Origin: Lachnospiraceae bacterium
GTDB lineage: Bacteria > Bacillota > Clostridia > Lachnospirales > Lachnospiraceae
Assembly (NCBI GenBank): GCA_017442585.1
Contig: JAFRZM010000037.1
Location: forward strand, 1-32,949
Length of the DNA: 32,949 bases
Reading direction: 5' to 3'
Notes under the pieces: model-generated
The model's input: the letters and a program-made list of their open reading frames with translations, nothing else
The model's database searches: none
Told to the model about the DNA's origin: nothing
Part shown: piece by piece, positions 7,802 through 25,153 of the stretch
How the letters are laid out: every line of letters begins with the position of its first letter
Numbering within the stretch: the first letter of the stretch is position 1
Program-made: the position numbers and the translations under genes

Positions 7802-10471
7802 ATGATCAATAGAATTCGAAGATATATCAGTGATGAAAACATAAAACTTCAAAACCGTATGTTTGTTTTGACTTCGATAATAGTATCAATATGTTTATTC
7901 CTTACCGTAGTCATAACACTTATTTGCCAGAAGCCTTGGATAGCGCTTTCAGTCGGAATCGGTAATATTGCGCTTTTGCTTGCGGTATTTATAGGATACA
8001 AGTTCGACAGGATAGAAAATGCGAGTAAGGTAGTATCTGCTGTTATTGTATTAGTGGTACTTCCGCTTGTGTATTACACCGTCGGCGGAGCAAAGAGCGG
8101 TGCACCGATGATATTTATCATGGTTGCCTTCTATATAAGCCTTCTTATAACAGGATGGTACAAGGTAATCTTGCTTATCATAGAGGCAATAATTCTTGGT
8201 GCGGGAATATGGATAGAAACCAGGTATCCGGGATTCATAAAGCCGCCTACAGAGTTTATGCAGTATTTATGCCTTTTCCTTATAGCGGCATTTATGAGCG
8301 CTCTTATATCGATTATCGTAAGTTACGAGAATAAACTTTTAAACCTCGAGCTTTTCCGTTCAAAGGAGCAGCGTGAAGAGATTGAAAGACTTAACCGTGC
8401 GCAGAATCAGTTCTTCTCAAGCATGAGCCATGAGATAAGAACCCCGATTAATACGATAATCGGACTTAATGAAATGATCCTTCGTGAGAATGCGTCGGAT
8501 GAAATCAATGAGAATGCGGCATCTATCCAGTCGGCAGGTAAGATGCTTTTACACCTTATAAACGATATTCTCGATATGTCTAAGTTTGAGAGCGGACAGA
8601 TGGAGCTTACTCCGGTAAATTATCATATCGGTGATATGCTTTCCGAGATTGTCGGAATGCTTTGGCTTCGCGCCAAGGAAAAGGGCCTGGAGTTTCATGT
8701 AAATGTCTCGCCTGATGTTCCTGATGAACTTATCGGTGATGAAGTACGTATCAAACAGATACTTATAAACGTGCTTAATAATGCAATTAAGTACACAAGC
8801 AAGGGAGAAGTTAAGCTTACAATAGAGGCTACTGATATCAAGAGCACCAAAGCCAATATCGTATTTTATGTAGAAGATACCGGTATGGGTATCAAGAAAG
8901 AGAGTATGCCTTATCTTTTCACGGCATTTAAGCGTGTCGATGAAGAAAAGAACCGTCATATAGAAGGTACGGGACTTGGTCTTTCAATCGTTAAGCAGTT
9001 CGTAGACTTAATGGATGGAAAGATTACGGTTAACAGTGTCTATACAAAGGGTTCGACATTTATCATCGAGATTCCTCAGCAGGTAGCAAGTGAGCGCAAG
9101 GTTGGTAATCTTGATATCGAGAAGCGCCACAGCTTAAACAAGATTAGCAATTACCATCAGTCATTCGAAGCACCGAATGCCAAGGTACTTGTTGTTGATG
9201 ATACTGCGGCAAACCTTCTCGTTGTACAAAAGCTTTTACGAGATACCAAGGTCAAAGTTACCACATCTACAAGCGGTGAGGATGCTTTAAGAAAGACTCA
9301 GGAAGAAAAGTATGACATAATCCTTATGGATCATCTTATGCCTAATATGGACGGTATCGAGTGTCTCCATAAGATAAGAGATCAGATCGGCGGATTCAAT
9401 AAGGAAACAAAGATTATAGCTTTAACCGCAAATGCGGGAAGCGAGATGAAGGCACTCTATGCACGCGAAGGTTTTGACGGATATATTGTAAAGCCTGTAA
9501 CGGGTGATATCTTAGAGGCTGAACTTCGTCGCCAGCTTCCAAGTGATTTGGTAACACTTACAGGTTCTTCGGAAGAAATTATTGAAGAAAGTCTCCTTTG
9601 GAATTCGGATCACTCGAAGAAGACGGTAGTTGCGATAACTACGGAAAGTGTTGCCGATCTTCCAAAGGCATTTACAAGAAAGAATCATATTGCGGTTATT
9701 CCGCATATGGTTGAGACAGAGGAAGGACTCTTCCGTGACGGTATAGAAATCGAACAGGGCGGACTTTTAAGTTATATGGAGGATCCGAACAAGAAGGTTT
9801 CTACCAAAGCGCCGGATGTTGCAACACACGAGCTCTTCTTTGCAAAAGCACTTGAAAGAGCAAATAACGTAATTCATATATCAATCTCCAGTAAGGTTGC
9901 GCAGTCCGGATGTCCTGCTGCGATAGAAGCCTCAAAGACATTTGATAATGTATTTGTAGTTGATACCGGACATCTTTCCAGCGGCGAGGGTCTTATGGCC
10001 ATGTATGCAGCACGTCTTGCAGAAAGCGGCAAGAATGCACGTGAGATTGTCCGTGAGCTTGAGGATGCGAAAAAACGCGTCCATACAAGCTTTGTAGTTG
10101 ATAATCTTGATTATCTTGCGAGAAACGGCCAGTTAAGTGGCAAGGCTGCAAACCTTATAAAGTCTCTTATGATAAGACCTGTCATAACTCTTAAAAAAGG
10201 CAAGATGAAGGTCGGAGGCATATACTTCGGTTCGCGTGACAGAGCATGGAACAAGTACATTAATTCATGCCTTGATATAGTAAAGACCATTGATACAAGA
10301 GTGTTGTTTATAACATACGTAGGTCTTTCGCAGGCGGAACTTGATGACATAGCAATGCAGGTTTCACGTAAGGTAACATTTGACAAGATATACTTCCAAA
10401 AGGCTTCGCCGGCGATTGCGGTTAACTGCGGTCCGGGAACCTTTGGACTACTTTATATGACTACAAACTAG
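7802..10471 (+). CDS. Hybrid sensor histidine kinase fused to a C-terminal DegV (fatty-acid-binding) domain
   Basis: Residues ~20-175: about six membrane segments. HisKA has His210 (SMSHEIRTPINTIIGL). The ATPase domain is intact (NVLNNAIKYTSKG, VEDTGMGI, GTGLGLSI). REC has VVDDTAAN, Asp510 in LMDHLMPNMDG, ALTAN and IVKP. From about residue 606 to the end (889) lies a complete DegV/FakB domain: AITTESVADLPK, ISISSKVAQSG, VVDTGHLSSGEG, LDYLARNGQLSG, IRPVITLKKGKM, and NCGPGTFGLLYM. In DegV/FakB proteins these motifs bind a fatty-acid carboxylate for the FakA kinase; the usual His before GPG is Asn here. The reading frame runs without a break, so the fusion is real in this sequence. The ribosome-binding site AAGGAG overlaps the upstream stop, and purC starts 13 bases later. 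Confidence 0.93.
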   Translation: MINRIRRYISDENIKLQNRMFVLTSIIVSICLFLTVVITLICQKPWIALSVGIGNIALLLAVFIGYKFDRIENASKVVSAVIVLVVLPLVYYTVGGAKSGAPMIFIMVAFYISLLITGWYKVILLIIEAIILGAGIWIETRYPGFIKPPTEFMQYLCLFLIAAFMSALISIIVSYENKLLNLELFRSKEQREEIERLNRAQNQFFSSMSHEIRTPINTIIGLNEMILRENASDEINENAASIQSAGKMLLHLINDILDMSKFESGQMELTPVNYHIGDMLSEIVGMLWLRAKEKGLEFHVNVSPDVPDELIGDEVRIKQILINVLNNAIKYTSKGEVKLTIEATDIKSTKANIVFYVEDTGMGIKKESMPYLFTAFKRVDEEKNRHIEGTGLGLSIVKQFVDLMDGKITVNSVYTKGSTFIIEIPQQVASERKVGNLDIEKRHSLNKISNYHQSFEAPNAKVLVVDDTAANLLVVQKLLRDTKVKVTTSTSGEDALRKTQEEKYDIILMDHLMPNMDGIECLHKIRDQIGGFNKETKIIALTANAGSEMKALYAREGFDGYIVKPVTGDILEAELRRQLPSDLVTLTGSSEEIIEESLLWNSDHSKKTVVAITTESVADLPKAFTRKNHIAVIPHMVETEEGLFRDGIEIEQGGLLSYMEDPNKKVSTKAPDVATHELFFAKALERANNVIHISISSKVAQSGCPAAIEASKTFDNVFVVDTGHLSSGEGLMAMYAARLAESGKNAREIVRELEDAKKRVHTSFVVDNLDYLARNGQLSGKAANLIKSLMIRPVITLKKGKMKVGGIYFGSRDRAWNKYINSCLDIVKTIDTRVLFITYVGLSQAELDDIAMQVSRKVTFDKIYFQKASPAIAVNCGPGTFGLLYMTTN

Positions 10472-19998: not shown

Positions 19999-20844
19999 AT
20001 GAAAAAGAAAATATTGGCGGCTTTGGCGCTGCTTTTAACATTATGCTTTATTGTACCTGCCGTTTCTTTTGCGGGAATAGATGATGTAACTCATAGAGTT
20101 CAGGATTTGGCAGGACTTATGAATGAGTCCGATGTTAATTCCTTAAGAACCAAGATAAATAAGGTTGCCGACGCAAGCGGTATTGAGATAGTAATCCTTA
20201 CTATTTCGGATATTACCGAGTGGCAGTTTTTGGGCGCAGATGACGGTCCATATTACGAATCCGATCAGTTAATGGAATTTGCCGATGACGCATATGATTA
20301 TGTAATAGATGCCGACGGTGAGAGCGGAGACGGACTCATACTTGTAATTAATATGGACGAGGGTAATGACGGTGATAACCGTGGATGGTGGATTTCCACC
20401 AAGGGTAAGGCGATTGAGTTATTTACCGACAAAAACCTCGAGTATATGGAATATCAGTTTAAGCCGTATCTTAGTTCAGGTGATTATTATACAGCTTTTG
20501 CGACGTTTATAGACCTTTGCGATAAGGTTATAAACGGAGAATCGATAGAACCGCCGAAGGAACCGTTTGATTATCTTCCTTCTTTGGTAATTGCTATTGT
20601 AATAGGACTTATCGGTGGACTTATTTATGTAAGTATATTAAAGGGCAAGATGAAGAGTGTGGCTTTCCAGAAGGGCGCATCATCTTATGTGGTTCCGAAT
20701 TCTCTTCATGTTGAGAAGTCACGCGATAACTTCTTATATATGACGGTTACAAGGACAAAGAGACAGTCTTCAAGCTCGAGCGGATCTTCTACACACAGAT
20801 CATCGTCGGGAAGTTCGCATGGTGGACGCGGTGGATCATTCTAA
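19999..20844 (+). CDS. TPM-domain membrane protein, YdjH-like
   Basis: 281 residues; GGAGG precedes the ATG. Signal peptide 1-25 (KKKILAALALLLTLCFIVPAVSFA). TPM domain ~28-180: VQDLAGLMNESDVNSLR, SGIEIVILTI, ADDAYDYVIDADGESGDGLILVINMD and GRGW-like NRGWWISTKGKAIE. One membrane helix near residues 196-216. The cytoplasmic tail ends in a Ser/Gly/His-rich stretch (SSGSSHGGRGGSF), common in this group. Third member of the ydj-like trio; the extracytoplasmic TPM domain could be the sensing part (inference). Confidence 0.88.
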   Translation: MKKKILAALALLLTLCFIVPAVSFAGIDDVTHRVQDLAGLMNESDVNSLRTKINKVADASGIEIVILTISDITEWQFLGADDGPYYESDQLMEFADDAYDYVIDADGESGDGLILVINMDEGNDGDNRGWWISTKGKAIELFTDKNLEYMEYQFKPYLSSGDYYTAFATFIDLCDKVINGESIEPPKEPFDYLPSLVIAIVIGLIGGLIYVSILKGKMKSVAFQKGASSYVVPNSLHVEKSRDNFLYMTVTRTKRQSSSSSGSSTHRSSSGSSHGGRGGSF

Positions 20845-20900
20845 GATATAATCTATATAAATGCTATGTAATAAACTATTCTTTTTAAGGAGGAATGGCC

Positions 20901-21239
20901 ATGAATGAGCAGGATTTTGTTATTGATAAGGCGGCAGGACTCAATTTTTGCGGAGGAATGGAAGAACTTTATAATGAGATAGTTCAGGACTTCGTAGAGG
21001 ACTGCAAGATAAGAATTGCAAATCTTACGACATGCTATAATAATAAAGACTGGGCCAATTATGCAATCGAGTCGCATTCCATTAAGGCTACCGCAAAGAC
21101 GGTGGGTGCCACAGATTTTGCGGAGCATTGCAGACTGCATGAGTTTGCTGCTAAGGAGGGAAACGTCGCATATATCGACGAAGATTTTGCGAACTTTATG
21201 GCTACCATAAAAGAATTAATCTCACGTGTGAGTGCTTGA
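20901..21239 (+). CDS. Stand-alone HPt (histidine phosphotransfer) protein
   Basis: 112 residues from ATG 20901, seven bases after AAGGAGG (20887-20893); ATG 20895 is too close to that site. A single HPt domain: YNEIVQDFVEDCKIRIANL, then SHSIKATAKTVGATDFAEHCRLHE, where the His two residues before Lys is the phospho-acceptor (family pattern HxLKG). It would shuttle phosphate between hybrid kinases and response regulators; candidates are the kinases of this window, but partners cannot be read from sequence. It follows the TPM gene by 56 bases, possibly in the same transcript. Confidence 0.85.
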   Translation: MNEQDFVIDKAAGLNFCGGMEELYNEIVQDFVEDCKIRIANLTTCYNNKDWANYAIESHSIKATAKTVGATDFAEHCRLHEFAAKEGNVAYIDEDFANFMATIKELISRVSA

Positions 21240-21297
21240 TTTTAGGGTGTTCACAGAATGCTCGATAAAAAAATACTGATTTTTGGGTAAAAAGTGC

Positions 21298-21326
21298 TTT
21301 ACATTTACGTAAAAGTTTTGTAAAAT
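21298..21326 (+). promoter_or_regulatory. Promoter of the structured RNA
   Basis: TTTACA (21298-21303), 17-base spacer, TAAAAT (21321-21326). It places transcription start near 21333, well after the HPt stop and far from any start codon. Confidence 0.7.
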
Positions 21327-21332
21327 AAACAC

Positions 21333-21754
21333 GTAGAAAGTTGCTGAGAGAGAGGACAAAGAAAACCCGATTAGCAATAAGATCATAAGCGCAGGCATTC
21401 GCCTGTGAGAAGAAGGGTTTAAAGCGGATTGCTTGCTATTGAACTTGTTCTTCGATGAAGTAAATCAGATTTTGAATAATAGTCGCTTAGGAATGTGTGA
21501 TAAAGACATATTCATCTAAGCCTACCAGAGGCCATTAGGAGAATGAAGAGGAGCGGATTTGAGGGGTGAGTGATATACCCGGCAATCTTCGAAAATTCCC
21601 TGGCCTTCCGGTTTTTACCGGAACACCGGCTTAAGGTCGGAAGGCCTATTACATACAGCCTCCGTGTTAGGACGTCTGTGTGCATCTGCATAGGTGCTTG
21701 TGATGTACAAGCACGGATGAACTGTAAAAGATGAGGATTACCTCATCTTTTTTT
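21333..21754 (+). ncRNA. Structured non-coding RNA of unrecognised class, about 420 nt
   Basis: No reading frame with a ribosome-binding site occupies this stretch, but it has its own promoter, an intrinsic terminator and dense base-pairing. Stems include AAACCC/GGGTTT (21363-21368/21415-21420) enclosing CAGGC/GCCTG (21392-21396/21401-21405); GCTTAG/CTAAGC (21485-21490/21516-21521) continued by a wobble-containing 7-bp stem; GAAGA/TCTTC (21545-21549/21586-21590) around GGGT/ACCC; GGCCTTCCG/CGGAAGGCC (21602-21610/21638-21646); and GTGCTTGT/ACAAGCAC (21694-21701/21707-21714). I checked by eye for RNase P, tmRNA, SRP RNA, 6S, T-box, cobalamin and group II intron hallmarks and found none convincing. 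It may be a free RNA, since larB has its own promoter after the terminator. Confidence 0.7.
21726..21754 (+). terminator. Terminator of the structured RNA
   Basis: AAAAGATGAGG (21726-21736), loop ATTA, complement (21741-21751), T-run 21748-21754. Confidence 0.9.
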
Positions 21755-21756
21755 GT

Positions 21757-21785
21757 TTGTATGTACACAAAAAATACGCTAAAAT
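21757..21785 (+). promoter_or_regulatory. Promoter of larB
   Basis: TTGTAT (21757-21762), 17-base spacer, TAAAAT (21780-21785), only two bases after the preceding terminator. A TTG at 21757 that could open the larB frame is therefore part of the -35 box, not a start codon. Confidence 0.65.
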
Positions 21786-21834
21786 ATGTTTAAATGAAAG
21801 ATATGATATATATAGAATATGGGGGACTATGGCT

Positions 21835-22533
21835 ATGAGTAGTGACGAGAAATTTTTGGACCTCGGTTTTGCGAAACTTGATACTGACAGAAAGCGACGT
21901 ACAGGTTTTGCGGAAGTCGTGTTTTGCCAAAGCAAGGCGGATGACTATCTTGTTGAGATATATAAAAGGCTTTACGAGAAAGAGGGTTCGGTGTTTGGAA
22001 CAAGAGCGTCCGAGCACCAGTATGAACTTATTAAAGAGCTTTTTCCTGAAGTAATATATGATCCGGTATCGAAAATCCTTGTGATAGAGCCTAAGGAGAA
22101 AAAAGAACGAATCGGACAAATTGCGGTATGTACGGCCGGAACGGCAGATCTTTTTGTTGCGGAAGAAGCGGCAAAGACCATTGAGTATTTCGGCGGCAAT
22201 GCACTTAGAGTATACGACGTTGGAGTCAGTGGAATACATAGGCTTTTAGCTCGTATGGATGAGATAAATAAATCAAACGTTATAATAGCCATAGCAGGAA
22301 TGGAAGGGGCATTGGCAAGTGTTATAGGAGGATTGGCAGATAAGCCTGTAATAGCTGTTCCGACTTCTGTCGGATATGGTGCGAATTTGGGCGGTGTGTC
22401 AGCGCTTCTTACGATGATAAATTCGTGTGCCAATGGTATTTCTGTTGTGAATATTGATAACGGATACGGCGCGGCTTATATGGCTACGCAGATAAACAGA
22501 CTTGCGGTTTTTGGAGGGGTAAGGAATGAGTAA
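21835..22533 (+). CDS. larB: LarB, pyridinium-3,5-biscarboxylic acid mononucleotide synthase
   Basis: 232 residues from ATG 21835, nine bases after GGGGG; ATG 21829 is possible. LarB carboxylates nicotinic acid adenine dinucleotide in synthesis of the nickel-pincer nucleotide cofactor of lactate racemase (LarA). N-terminal LarB motifs: FLDLGFAKLDTDRKRRTGFAEVVFCQSK. The C-terminal half is PurE/AIR-carboxylase-like: IAVCTAGTADLFVAEEAA, ALRVYDVGVSGIHRLL, VIIAIAGMEGALASVIGGL, PVIAVPTSVGYG. Overlaps the LarC-type gene by 8 bases. No larA or larE is present in the window, so the racemase or another pincer enzyme must be elsewhere. Confidence 0.92.
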   Translation: MSSDEKFLDLGFAKLDTDRKRRTGFAEVVFCQSKADDYLVEIYKRLYEKEGSVFGTRASEHQYELIKELFPEVIYDPVSKILVIEPKEKKERIGQIAVCTAGTADLFVAEEAAKTIEYFGGNALRVYDVGVSGIHRLLARMDEINKSNVIIAIAGMEGALASVIGGLADKPVIAVPTSVGYGANLGGVSALLTMINSCANGISVVNIDNGYGAAYMATQINRLAVFGGVRNE

Positions 22534-22990
22534 TTACCAGAATATGCTCCATGATGATTGCATAAAACTGGAGACTAATATAGACGATGCAACGCCCGAA
22601 ATGATGGGTATAACACTTGAGCGTCTTATGGATGCCGGAGCACTTGATGCATGTTTTATACCGTGCTTTATGAAGAAGAACCGTCCGGCATATATGCTTC
22701 AGGTTTTATGTCATGAAGATACAATGGCGGCGCTTGAAGAAATAATATTTAAAGAGACAACGACTATCGGAGTACGTTGGGAGTTATACAGACGTGACAT
22801 GTTACAAAGAGAAATAGTAACAGTCAATACTTCGCTTGGAGACGCACTTGTTAAAGTGTGTACGCTTCCTGATGGAACGACGAAGTTTTATCCGGAGTAC
22901 GAAAGCATAAAAGAATTATCTGAAAAACATAATAAGAGCTACCGCGAGATCTTTGACCTGGTCAAACTCTCCTGTGAAATCAAAAGATAG
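22526..22990 (+). CDS. Stand-alone LarC C-terminal domain (LarC2), nickel-pincer cofactor metallation
   Basis: 154 residues; GGGGTAAGG precedes the ATG inside larB. It matches only the last part of LarC: LETNIDDATPEMMGITLERLMDAGALDA, PCFMKKNRPAYMLQVLC, FKETTTIGVRWELYRRDML. Full LarC proteins are about 400 residues and insert nickel into the pincer nucleotide; in Lactobacillus plantarum LarC1 and LarC2 are joined by a programmed frameshift. No LarC1 coding sequence lies upstream here, since larB ends directly at this gene. Either LarC1 is encoded elsewhere or the domain acts alone. It is followed after 9 bases by the REC-EAL gene. Confidence 0.88.
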   Translation: MSNYQNMLHDDCIKLETNIDDATPEMMGITLERLMDAGALDACFIPCFMKKNRPAYMLQVLCHEDTMAALEEIIFKETTTIGVRWELYRRDMLQREIVTVNTSLGDALVKVCTLPDGTTKFYPEYESIKELSEKHNKSYREIFDLVKLSCEIKR

Positions 22991-22999
22991 GAGGCCCCT

Positions 23000-25153
23000 A
23001 TGAACGAAATGCTTACCATGATGATAGTTGATGACCGCTCGATGGACAGATCAATCCTTCGAGGCATCTTTATCAGTGACTATAATATTGTTGAGGCAAG
23101 TGACGGAGATGAAGCATTAAAGCTTCTTCGTGGAGGGATTAATGTTGATATAATCCTTTTGGATATTTTTATGCCTAAAATGAATGGCTTTGACTTTTTA
23201 AGAACAGTCAGAAAGGATCCTGCATTTAAGGATATTGTTATAGTTGTAAATTCGGGTGAGCATGATGAAGATAATGAGGTAGAGGCTTTGGAACTTGGCG
23301 CAGATGATTTTATAAATAAGCCGTACAATCAGCGCCTTGTACGTAAGAGAATTGCAAATGTCGTAAATAAGGTAATAGTTAATCGCGGAAAAGCTGAGGG
23401 CAAAGCTGCAGAGCTTAAATTTATCGCAGAACGTGATGTTTTGACAGGACTATATAATCGCGAGACTTTCTATGAAAAAGCGCGCGAATTTATAGATTCA
23501 CATGAAGAATTATCTGTTATATGTATATGGAATGTCGACAGATTTAAGGTAGTAAATGAACTCTTTGGATCAAGACTCGGCGATCAGGTCTTAAGAAATG
23601 TGGCACATCATCTTATTAAAGTTTTAAAGGATGACGGAACATGCACAAGAGTAGAGGCTGATAAGTTTTATTTTGTTACAACAAAGAAGAAATTATTAGA
23701 GCTTCGTCCTGATATTGAAAACGTTCTTTTTGGAAAAGAACAGTGGAGCCCTATAGATTACACATTACAGCTTCATATGGGTATATATGAAGTTACGGAG
23801 CGAGAGATGCCGGTTTACCTTATGTGTGATCGTGCAACGATGGCTTTAAATACGATAAAAGACAGTTATATTAAGAGATTTGCATATTACAGCGATGATT
23901 TAAAGAAGGCTATTCTTAATGAGCAGGAACTTGTTATAGAGATGGAAGTGGCGCTTAATAAGAGGCAGTTTTTTGTAGTGTTCCAGCCTATAGTCGAAAC
24001 AAGAACGGGACGTACTGTTTCTGCGGAAGCACTCGTACGTTGGAATCATCCGGTTAAGGGACTTATTAATCCGGGTGTATTTGTGCCGGTATTTGAAAAG
24101 AATGGTTTTATATCAATACTGGATCTTTATGTATGCGAGGAAGTCTGCCGTTTTATAAGGCAGCAGCTTGATAAGGGAGTGAAAGTTGTTCCGATATCGA
24201 TAAACGTATCCAGAATTAATTTCTATCGTCCGGAGTTTTTGGAAAGAATAAGTGAGATATTAAAAGAATATAAGCTTGACAGTTCATATATTAAGCTCGA
24301 GATAACCGAAGGCGCATATTCCGATAATCCGAAGTTTATGGCAGAGGCAATAAAGGGATTTAAGAATTCGGCCTTTGAAGTTTTGATGGATGATTTCGGA
24401 TCCGGATATTCGTCACTTAATATGCTTAAGGATTTTAATGTTGATACTTTGAAGATTGATATGAAGTTTATAAGCGATCTTGAGACGTCGGAGCGCGCAG
24501 ATAATATTCTTTATTCGATATTGCAGATGGCAAAAGCGCTTAATATGGGCACTGTTGCGGAGGGCGTTGAGACAAAGGCGCAGTATGAATTATTGGCGAG
24601 CATGGGATGCGATCTTATACAGGGATATTATTTTTCAAAGCCTATGACGGAAGAAGATTTATCAGCAAGACTTACCTTTGAAGAGGGTAAAGAGTTTAGC
24701 CACGACCTTCCTGACGTACGCCGCACTATTCTTGTAGTTGACGATCAAAATGTCGACAGACAGATAATAAAGCATATGATGATGCAGGATTTTAATGTCT
24801 TAGAGGCAGCAGACGGTGAAGAAGCTAAAGAAATATTAAAGAACAGTTTTAATAAGATAAGCCTTGTAATAGCGGATATCCATATGCCTAAGATGAATGG
24901 ACTCGATCTTTTAAAGTACATGAGTGAATATATATACTTAAAGGATATTCCTGTAATTATGGTTACTGCCTACGGTGAAAGGGAAAACGAAGAAGCAGCG
25001 CTTTCAAACGGAGCGTTGGAGATAATTACAAAGCCTTATGATACGAATCTTGTAAGAAAGCGTATAGGTAATGTGCTTAAGCTTTCCGAAGCAGAGATGC
25101 TTAAACGACAGATTAAGCGCATAAGGGATGAACAAATTGTCGAAAAGGCTTAA
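23000..25153 (+). CDS. REC-GGDEF(degenerate)-EAL-REC protein, probable c-di-GMP phosphodiesterase
   Basis: 717 residues; AGGAGG lies eight bases upstream. REC1 (1-125) has IVDDR, Asp55 in LLDIFMPKMNG and NKPY. GGDEF domain ~145-300: begins RDVLTGLYNRETF, but the signature is RVEADKF (217-223) instead of R-GGDEF and the substrate Asp region reads IWNVDRF, so cyclase activity is unlikely. EAL domain ~315-560: EALVRW (Glu343), INVSR, LEITEG, DDFGSGYSS (Asp464-465), LKIDMKF, AEGVET and QGYYFSKPM, with all metal and catalytic residues visible. REC2 (~585-700): VVDDQ, Asp626 in ADIHMPKMNG, VTAYG, TKPYD. Cytoplasmic. The two flanking receivers suggest a dual-input phosphodiesterase. Confidence 0.93.
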   Translation: MNEMLTMMIVDDRSMDRSILRGIFISDYNIVEASDGDEALKLLRGGINVDIILLDIFMPKMNGFDFLRTVRKDPAFKDIVIVVNSGEHDEDNEVEALELGADDFINKPYNQRLVRKRIANVVNKVIVNRGKAEGKAAELKFIAERDVLTGLYNRETFYEKAREFIDSHEELSVICIWNVDRFKVVNELFGSRLGDQVLRNVAHHLIKVLKDDGTCTRVEADKFYFVTTKKKLLELRPDIENVLFGKEQWSPIDYTLQLHMGIYEVTEREMPVYLMCDRATMALNTIKDSYIKRFAYYSDDLKKAILNEQELVIEMEVALNKRQFFVVFQPIVETRTGRTVSAEALVRWNHPVKGLINPGVFVPVFEKNGFISILDLYVCEEVCRFIRQQLDKGVKVVPISINVSRINFYRPEFLERISEILKEYKLDSSYIKLEITEGAYSDNPKFMAEAIKGFKNSAFEVLMDDFGSGYSSLNMLKDFNVDTLKIDMKFISDLETSERADNILYSILQMAKALNMGTVAEGVETKAQYELLASMGCDLIQGYYFSKPMTEEDLSARLTFEEGKEFSHDLPDVRRTILVVDDQNVDRQIIKHMMMQDFNVLEAADGEEAKEILKNSFNKISLVIADIHMPKMNGLDLLKYMSEYIYLKDIPVIMVTAYGERENEEAALSNGALEIITKPYDTNLVRKRIGNVLKLSEAEMLKRQIKRIRDEQIVEKA

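Follow-up and report, generated by a model that had tools for sequence, protein, structure and literature searches.

6S RNA is a free-standing bacterial RNA that folds into a long irregular rod, and RNAs of the CsrB/CsrC type carry GGA in their loops. Bacteria have few large noncoding RNAs, according to a report that also presents OLE, a large structured RNA of Bacillota of about 600 nt, with highly conserved stretches and a kink turn that is bound by OapC (PMC9723947). For the raiA motif RNA, or ModT (RF03072), the published account gives more than 2,500 species, between which the orientation of the RNA and its distance to neighbouring genes differ (PMC11706538). ROOL, whose name refers to a rumen origin, is described as a large structured RNA that forms RNA-only nanocages (PMC12286853).

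The window analysed here, a stretch of 32,949 nucleotides from a Lachnospiraceae bacterium (contig JAFRZM010000037.1 of assembly GCA_017442585.1), contains a predicted RNA gene that lies between a gene for a histidine phosphotransfer (HPt) protein and larB, on the same strand as both. Judged from its sequence, the RNA is so far unclassified, a free-standing structured bacterial RNA and not a new kind of system. A preliminary description had assigned it to no recognised class and suggested an Rfam scan, which bears this out: Rfam 15 gives no match at gathering score over the whole window, the seven matches in the region up to E = 10 (best E 0.28) all fall far below their gathering scores, and the loci of three relatives from the same genus give none up to E = 1. 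We found no description of the RNA in the open-access articles of PMC, and PMC11109978 and PMC8632094 hold no mention of it under the terms sought.

Like OLE, the RNA is structured, belongs to Bacillota and has highly conserved stretches, but it is 290-420 nt long instead of about 600 nt, has no Rfam match, and, where OLE has its OapC-bound kink turn, inspection of the conserved core fitted no consensus kink turn. It resembles raiA/ModT as a structured, probably trans-acting Bacillota RNA of variable orientation among species, but does not match the RF03072 covariance model and was found in four genomes, as against more than 2,500 species for raiA/ModT. ROOL is likewise large and structured; our RNA does not match it in Rfam. 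The earlier description had likened the RNA in size to OLE, ROOL and raiA-type RNAs, which is a likeness of size and nothing more. A free-standing gene and a long irregular rod are shared with 6S RNA. Identity with 6S was rejected because a distinct 6S gene (RF00013) lies on another contig both in the window's own genome, G000 (contig C19, where it scores 55.6 bits, the cut-off being 46.4), and in the genome of one relative, G003; no 6S was found in the genomes of the other two, G004 (62% complete) and G006 (69% complete). ARAGORN finds no tmRNA gene in the window. We also considered a dual-function, coding sRNA and rejected it for want of a conserved short open reading frame: among the three longest frames on the RNA strand of each copy none is common to all four, and one frame of 20-29 codons that is common to the three relatives breaks in the window.

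The features of the locus are these:

20901-21239, plus strand: HPt gene, upstream neighbour of the RNA, encoding a stand-alone histidine phosphotransfer protein (PF01627 over cut-off)
21297-21327, plus strand: promoter block CTTTACATTTACGTAAAAGTTTTGTAAAATA, its spacer conserved as well as its hexamers (alignment, and one match per carrier genome)
21333-21754, plus strand: RNA gene, with the predicted 5' end placed from the -10 box and the 3' end at the T tract of the terminator
21333-21340, plus strand: 5' strand of P1, GUAGAAAG, invariant; in place of the rod, 7 of 8 pairs can form with 21432-21439
21341-21426, plus strand: insert within P1 that is specific to the window and, in the alignment, largely missing from its three relatives
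21427-21468, plus strand: rod 5' arm, beginning GAUUGCUU, paired with 21550-21587 in the consensus structure
21469-21485, plus strand: core 5' strand AUUUUGAAUAAUAGUCG, with a single difference among the four aligned copies
21485-21521, plus strand: P3 tip hairpin, 37 nt in the window and 14 nt in the relatives
21521-21549, plus strand: core 3' strand CCUACCAGAGGCCAUUAGGAGAAUGAAGA, 29 nt, with one A/G difference in one of four copies
21550-21587, plus strand: rod 3' arm, ending GGCAAUC (consensus structure; arm-to-arm duplex)
21602-21646, plus strand: P6 hairpin, with its 11 pairs present in each of the four copies
21651-21682, plus strand: P7 hairpin, from the window fold, with only the relatives aligned by hand
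21694-21714, plus strand: P8 hairpin GUGCUUG...CAAGCAC, its 7-pair stem invariant
21726-21754, plus strand: P9 intrinsic terminator, a hairpin at 21726-21751 followed by the T tract
21829-22533, plus strand: larB (PF00731), downstream neighbour of the RNA

Taken alone, the promoter and terminator are within chance expectation for positions 20500-22500, where 10 promoter-like sites were observed against 4.9 expected and one terminator-like site against 1.3 expected. They are credible because they are conserved among the relatives. The TTTACA-17-TAAAAT promoter proposed at the outset is present at 21298-21326, and a search with TTTACATTTAYGTAAAANTTTTGTAAAAT, allowing up to three mismatches, gives exactly one match per genome, without mismatch, in four of the seven genomes of the genus and none in the other three (96, 77 and 99% complete). 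One degenerate pattern fits the promoter block of all carriers, spacer included, without mismatch. The terminator that had been claimed for the RNA is likewise found, its hairpin common to all four copies, whereas a larB promoter said to follow it after two bases is absent from the scan, in which the nearest weak match lies at 21789-21818. The predicted transcript measures about 420 nt in the window and about 290-330 nt in the relatives. Genomes from two further genera of the same family have TTGTAAAATAAAAATGTAGAAAGTTGCA beside ATGTAGG motifs near positions 1501-1560 of loci L008 and L010; this may be where a repeat or a mobile element ends, and its likeness to the junction between the RNA's promoter and start perhaps reflects chance or descent.

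BLAST places relatives of the RNA in three of the six other genomes of the genus, with best E values of 4.9e-14, 3.5e-8 and 4.8e-8. The carriers are G003, G004 and G006, and G001, G002 and G005 are without it. A covariance model, R1, gives the four copies 111-137 bits, scoring the same sequences from which it was built, and gives anything else in the seven genus genomes at most 19.7 bits. Among 397 genomes of the family, R1 matches 29 others at E <= 0.01, the best with 26.9 bits, where the window has 110.6; we rejected these as further members, the eight alignments viewed looking like chance and a fuller model, R2, not confirming them. At E 0.001 and with strict filters, R2 recovers only the window's own genome from these 397 genomes of the family and from a sample of 392 of the order; neither sample evidently contains the three relatives, as these would have matched. 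BLAST matches of 23-35 nt in six genomes of other genera were also set aside, since in all six the surrounding sequence, when read, holds no copy of the RNA. The exact core 17-mer occurs in 12 stretches of the genome contigs searched, three of them the known relatives; the other nine, and one viral match, have unrelated flanks, and R1 gives these ten loci at most 28.2 bits, as expected for loci chosen by that 17-mer. The RNA thus appears to be limited to a small clade of Lachnospiraceae, with four sequences from that one clade.

The transcript is predicted to form a long irregular rod whose closing helix is GAUUGCUU/GGCAAUC. The core that the rod would present consists of the strand AUUUUGAAUAAUAGUCG, an internal loop of purines, with GAA opposite GG or GGA, and a bulge of 8 nt, CUACCAGA. 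Three hairpins and the terminator hairpin would follow on the 3' side of the rod. The window RNA folds at -144.8 kcal/mol (z = -7.0), with none of 100 dinucleotide shuffles as low, and the relatives fold at z of -6.2, -4.7 and -4.4. RNAalifold applied to the three relatives only gives the long rod and then P6-P9, and the same rod comes from the four-sequence alignment; against 100 column-shuffled alignments, none of which reached the real energy, z is -7.6 for the three relatives and -9.6 for all four. In alignment A6, the 57 consensus pairs are formed in 94.7% of cells, compared with 33-45% in slid controls, and seven of them are changed on both sides, compared with 0-2. Among 500 shuffles, 16 reached the real alignment in double changes, 3 in covariation score, 1 in cells paired and 197 in pair types. 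Covariation among homologues, which had been proposed as a check, is therefore seen as compensatory change, modest because there are only four sequences from one clade.

Individual helices show where these changes fall. In P3, four of five hand-aligned pairs are changed on both sides, with U-A becoming C-G in G003 and the hairpin rebuilt in the window. A 9-bp GC-rich stem singled out earlier, GGCCTTCCG/CGGAAGGCC (21602/21638), proved real: it is P6, present in all four copies with 11 of 11 pairs in each and one double-sided change, and its variable pair is A-U, G-U or C-G among the hand-aligned copies. One pair of P7 is U-A, C-G or A-U in the three relatives, and an aligned pair on the loop side of P9 is A-U in the relatives and G-C in the window. 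The weak A-U pairs predicted for the core are nearly invariant across the four copies. A pairing of TTACA with TGTAA that had been thought to compete with the terminator stem has no counterpart in the relatives, on our reading of the alignment.

The energetics of the rod are less uniform than its conservation. The rod arms form a better duplex than shuffled sequences in three of the four copies (fractions as good 0.0075, 0.003 and, for the window's duplex of -21.5 kcal/mol tested against 2000 shuffles, 0.0195), and the arms of G003, with a fraction of 0.10, are within chance on their own. When the window RNA is folded, the rod has competition from the local hairpins P1, P2 and P5; the rod-closing helix has a pair probability of 0.0 in the ensemble, and forcing the rod costs 5.5 kcal/mol of ensemble energy. 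P1 (GUAGAAAG/CUUUCUAC) uses the same strand as the rod-closing helix. It is preferred over the rod by 4.6 kcal/mol in G004 and by 1.3 in G006, and G003 favours the rod by 0.7; the window's rod has an advantage of 8.5 over P1, yet the ensemble uses neither. Two mismatches in P1, one in G003 and one in the window, occur where the rod compensates or is unpaired, a pattern that points to the rod as the structure under selection, although the RNA may use both forms.

The order TPM gene, HPt, RNA, larB, lone larC2 and REC-GGDEF-EAL gene is kept in all four RNA-bearing genomes within the reach of their contigs; the TPM gene is present in the window, G003 and G006, and the short G004 contig does not show it. 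An HPt orthologue with 58-65% identity stands beside the RNA in all four, and the highest other identity among the matches listed from 60 genomes is 36%. Common descent alone may account for this co-occurrence. After larB, positions 22526-22990 encode the C-terminal half of LarC on its own (PF01969 positions 238-374 of 375), as in the three RNA-bearing relatives; in G001, G002 and G005 a long LarC of 412-436 aa adjoins larB. The protein encoded at 23000-25153 has the arrangement receiver-GGDEF-EAL-receiver, and each of the four genomes with the RNA has a similar protein next to its lar genes. Elsewhere in the window, at 7802-10471, a hybrid histidine kinase (HisKA, HATPase, receiver) is fused to a DegV domain, a seemingly unusual combination. 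By eye, about 150-180 nt of the 5' flank of larB are common to the three relatives (loci L060, L061 and L053) and absent from the window; this common flank contains ATAGGTATAGATA and a TAGACA-type promoter.

Orientation bears directly on what the RNA could do. In the window the RNA is co-directional with its neighbours, and its place between HPt and larB, on their strand, would suit a larB 5' leader or riboswitch, or a 3' untranslated region of HPt. In all three relatives, however, it runs against its neighbours, away from larB and toward HPt, and ends at its own terminator, and therefore cannot be a larB leader there; a cis leader would be co-directional with larB in all carriers, and this RNA is so in one of four. 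We regard a leader or 3' UTR as extremely improbable. The opposite orientation argues instead that the RNA probably acts in trans, and it strengthens the free-standing structured RNA of the preliminary description, for which its own promoter, terminator, conserved structure and covariation are all found in four sequences. That this is a real free-standing RNA gene is very probable. The unit that differs between the window and the relatives is the promoter-RNA-terminator segment, and one past inversion would explain the orientation in all three relatives. Outside this segment, no comparison of the immediate flanks, in either orientation, exceeds the best of 200 shuffles. Such unalignable flanks and the flipped orientation could also mark a mobile or decaying cassette retained by chance, as could weak inverted repeats that bracket the RNA in G004 (12 nt) and G003 (16 nt). 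No bracketing repeat is found in the window or G006, and inversion by way of flanking repeats was rejected because they are confined to the former two. Each genome moreover has a single strong copy at one locus, 50,697 phage and 72,556 plasmid records give no match at E 1e-5, and pairing is retained despite sequence drift, so that a chance cassette is very unlikely.

Our preferred reading, to which we assign a probability of roughly 0.6, is that the gene encodes a free-standing structured RNA, acting in trans, whose rod presents the core and whose core binds a protein or a ligand. The core would be the working site, most likely bound by protein, in an RNP or a protein-titrating RNA, or by a ligand, and the length-variable hairpins would serve as scaffold. 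A near-fixed core, hairpins that drift but are kept, and free orientation would fit a trans-acting RNA that binds its partner at the core. We hold any assignment of function with low confidence, and the odds that the core is a protein or ligand site rather than an antisense seed are about even. A trans-encoded base-pairing sRNA, with the core as antisense seed for mRNA targets, is a doubtful alternative taken as a whole. The core is near-invariant and partly unpaired, and a narrow range would be in keeping with the statement, in PMC11706538, that sRNAs rarely occur outside their own genus or family. Duplexes between the core and the start regions of HPt, larB, larC2 and the REC-GGDEF-EAL gene rank, for all four in the window, within the best 7% when each is set against 40 shuffles, as would suit an antisense RNA, but in the relatives none of 12 tests falls in the best 20%; conserved antisense to these genes was rejected because the signal is confined to the window. 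A 29-nt near-fixed block together with kept long-range structure would, moreover, exceed the needs of a seed.

Two further readings give the core a more specific task. A CsrA-titrating RNA is suggested by an invariant AGGAG in a possible CAUU-AGGAG-AAUG hairpin that resembles a CsrA site, and CsrA is encoded in the window's genome and in five of the seven genus genomes. The core GGA is present in all four copies, 0.88 unpaired in G006 and 0.33-0.56 unpaired in the others. CsrB/CsrC-type RNAs share the GGA in a loop, but our RNA shows no enrichment: its copies contain 5, 5, 5 and 11 GGA, compared with 5.2, 5.6, 4.6 and 9.5 in shuffles, and a CsrA sponge with many GGA sites was rejected because the counts are like those of shuffles in all four. 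G001 and G002, furthermore, encode CsrA without the RNA, and in G004 (62% complete), which has the RNA, CsrA was not found. We consider CsrA titration very unlikely. It is somewhat less unlikely, though still clearly a minority view, that the RNA is a trans-acting switch with the core as receptor, in which binding at the core shifts the fold and toggles the binding of a partner. The two sets of mutually exclusive pairings, retained in evolution, on which such a switch could draw are P1 against the rod-closing helix on the same strand, and the 5' strand of P6, which has an additional, nearer partner (21618-21623 in the window), against its near and far partner copies, these three having changed in concert in the window. 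If true, this would be a new class of trans-acting RNA switch.

Taken together, these observations support a free-standing, probably trans-acting structured RNA with a candidate binding core. The named large bacterial RNAs are mostly defined by wide conservation, whereas this one is narrow in range, being found in four of seven genomes of its genus, and combines that range with a near-fixed core, a kept fold and an orientation that is flipped while the locus stays fixed. As a structured RNA gene that may be young, it makes a compact and testable case, and its importance would be greater if the core proves to be the binding site of a known regulator.
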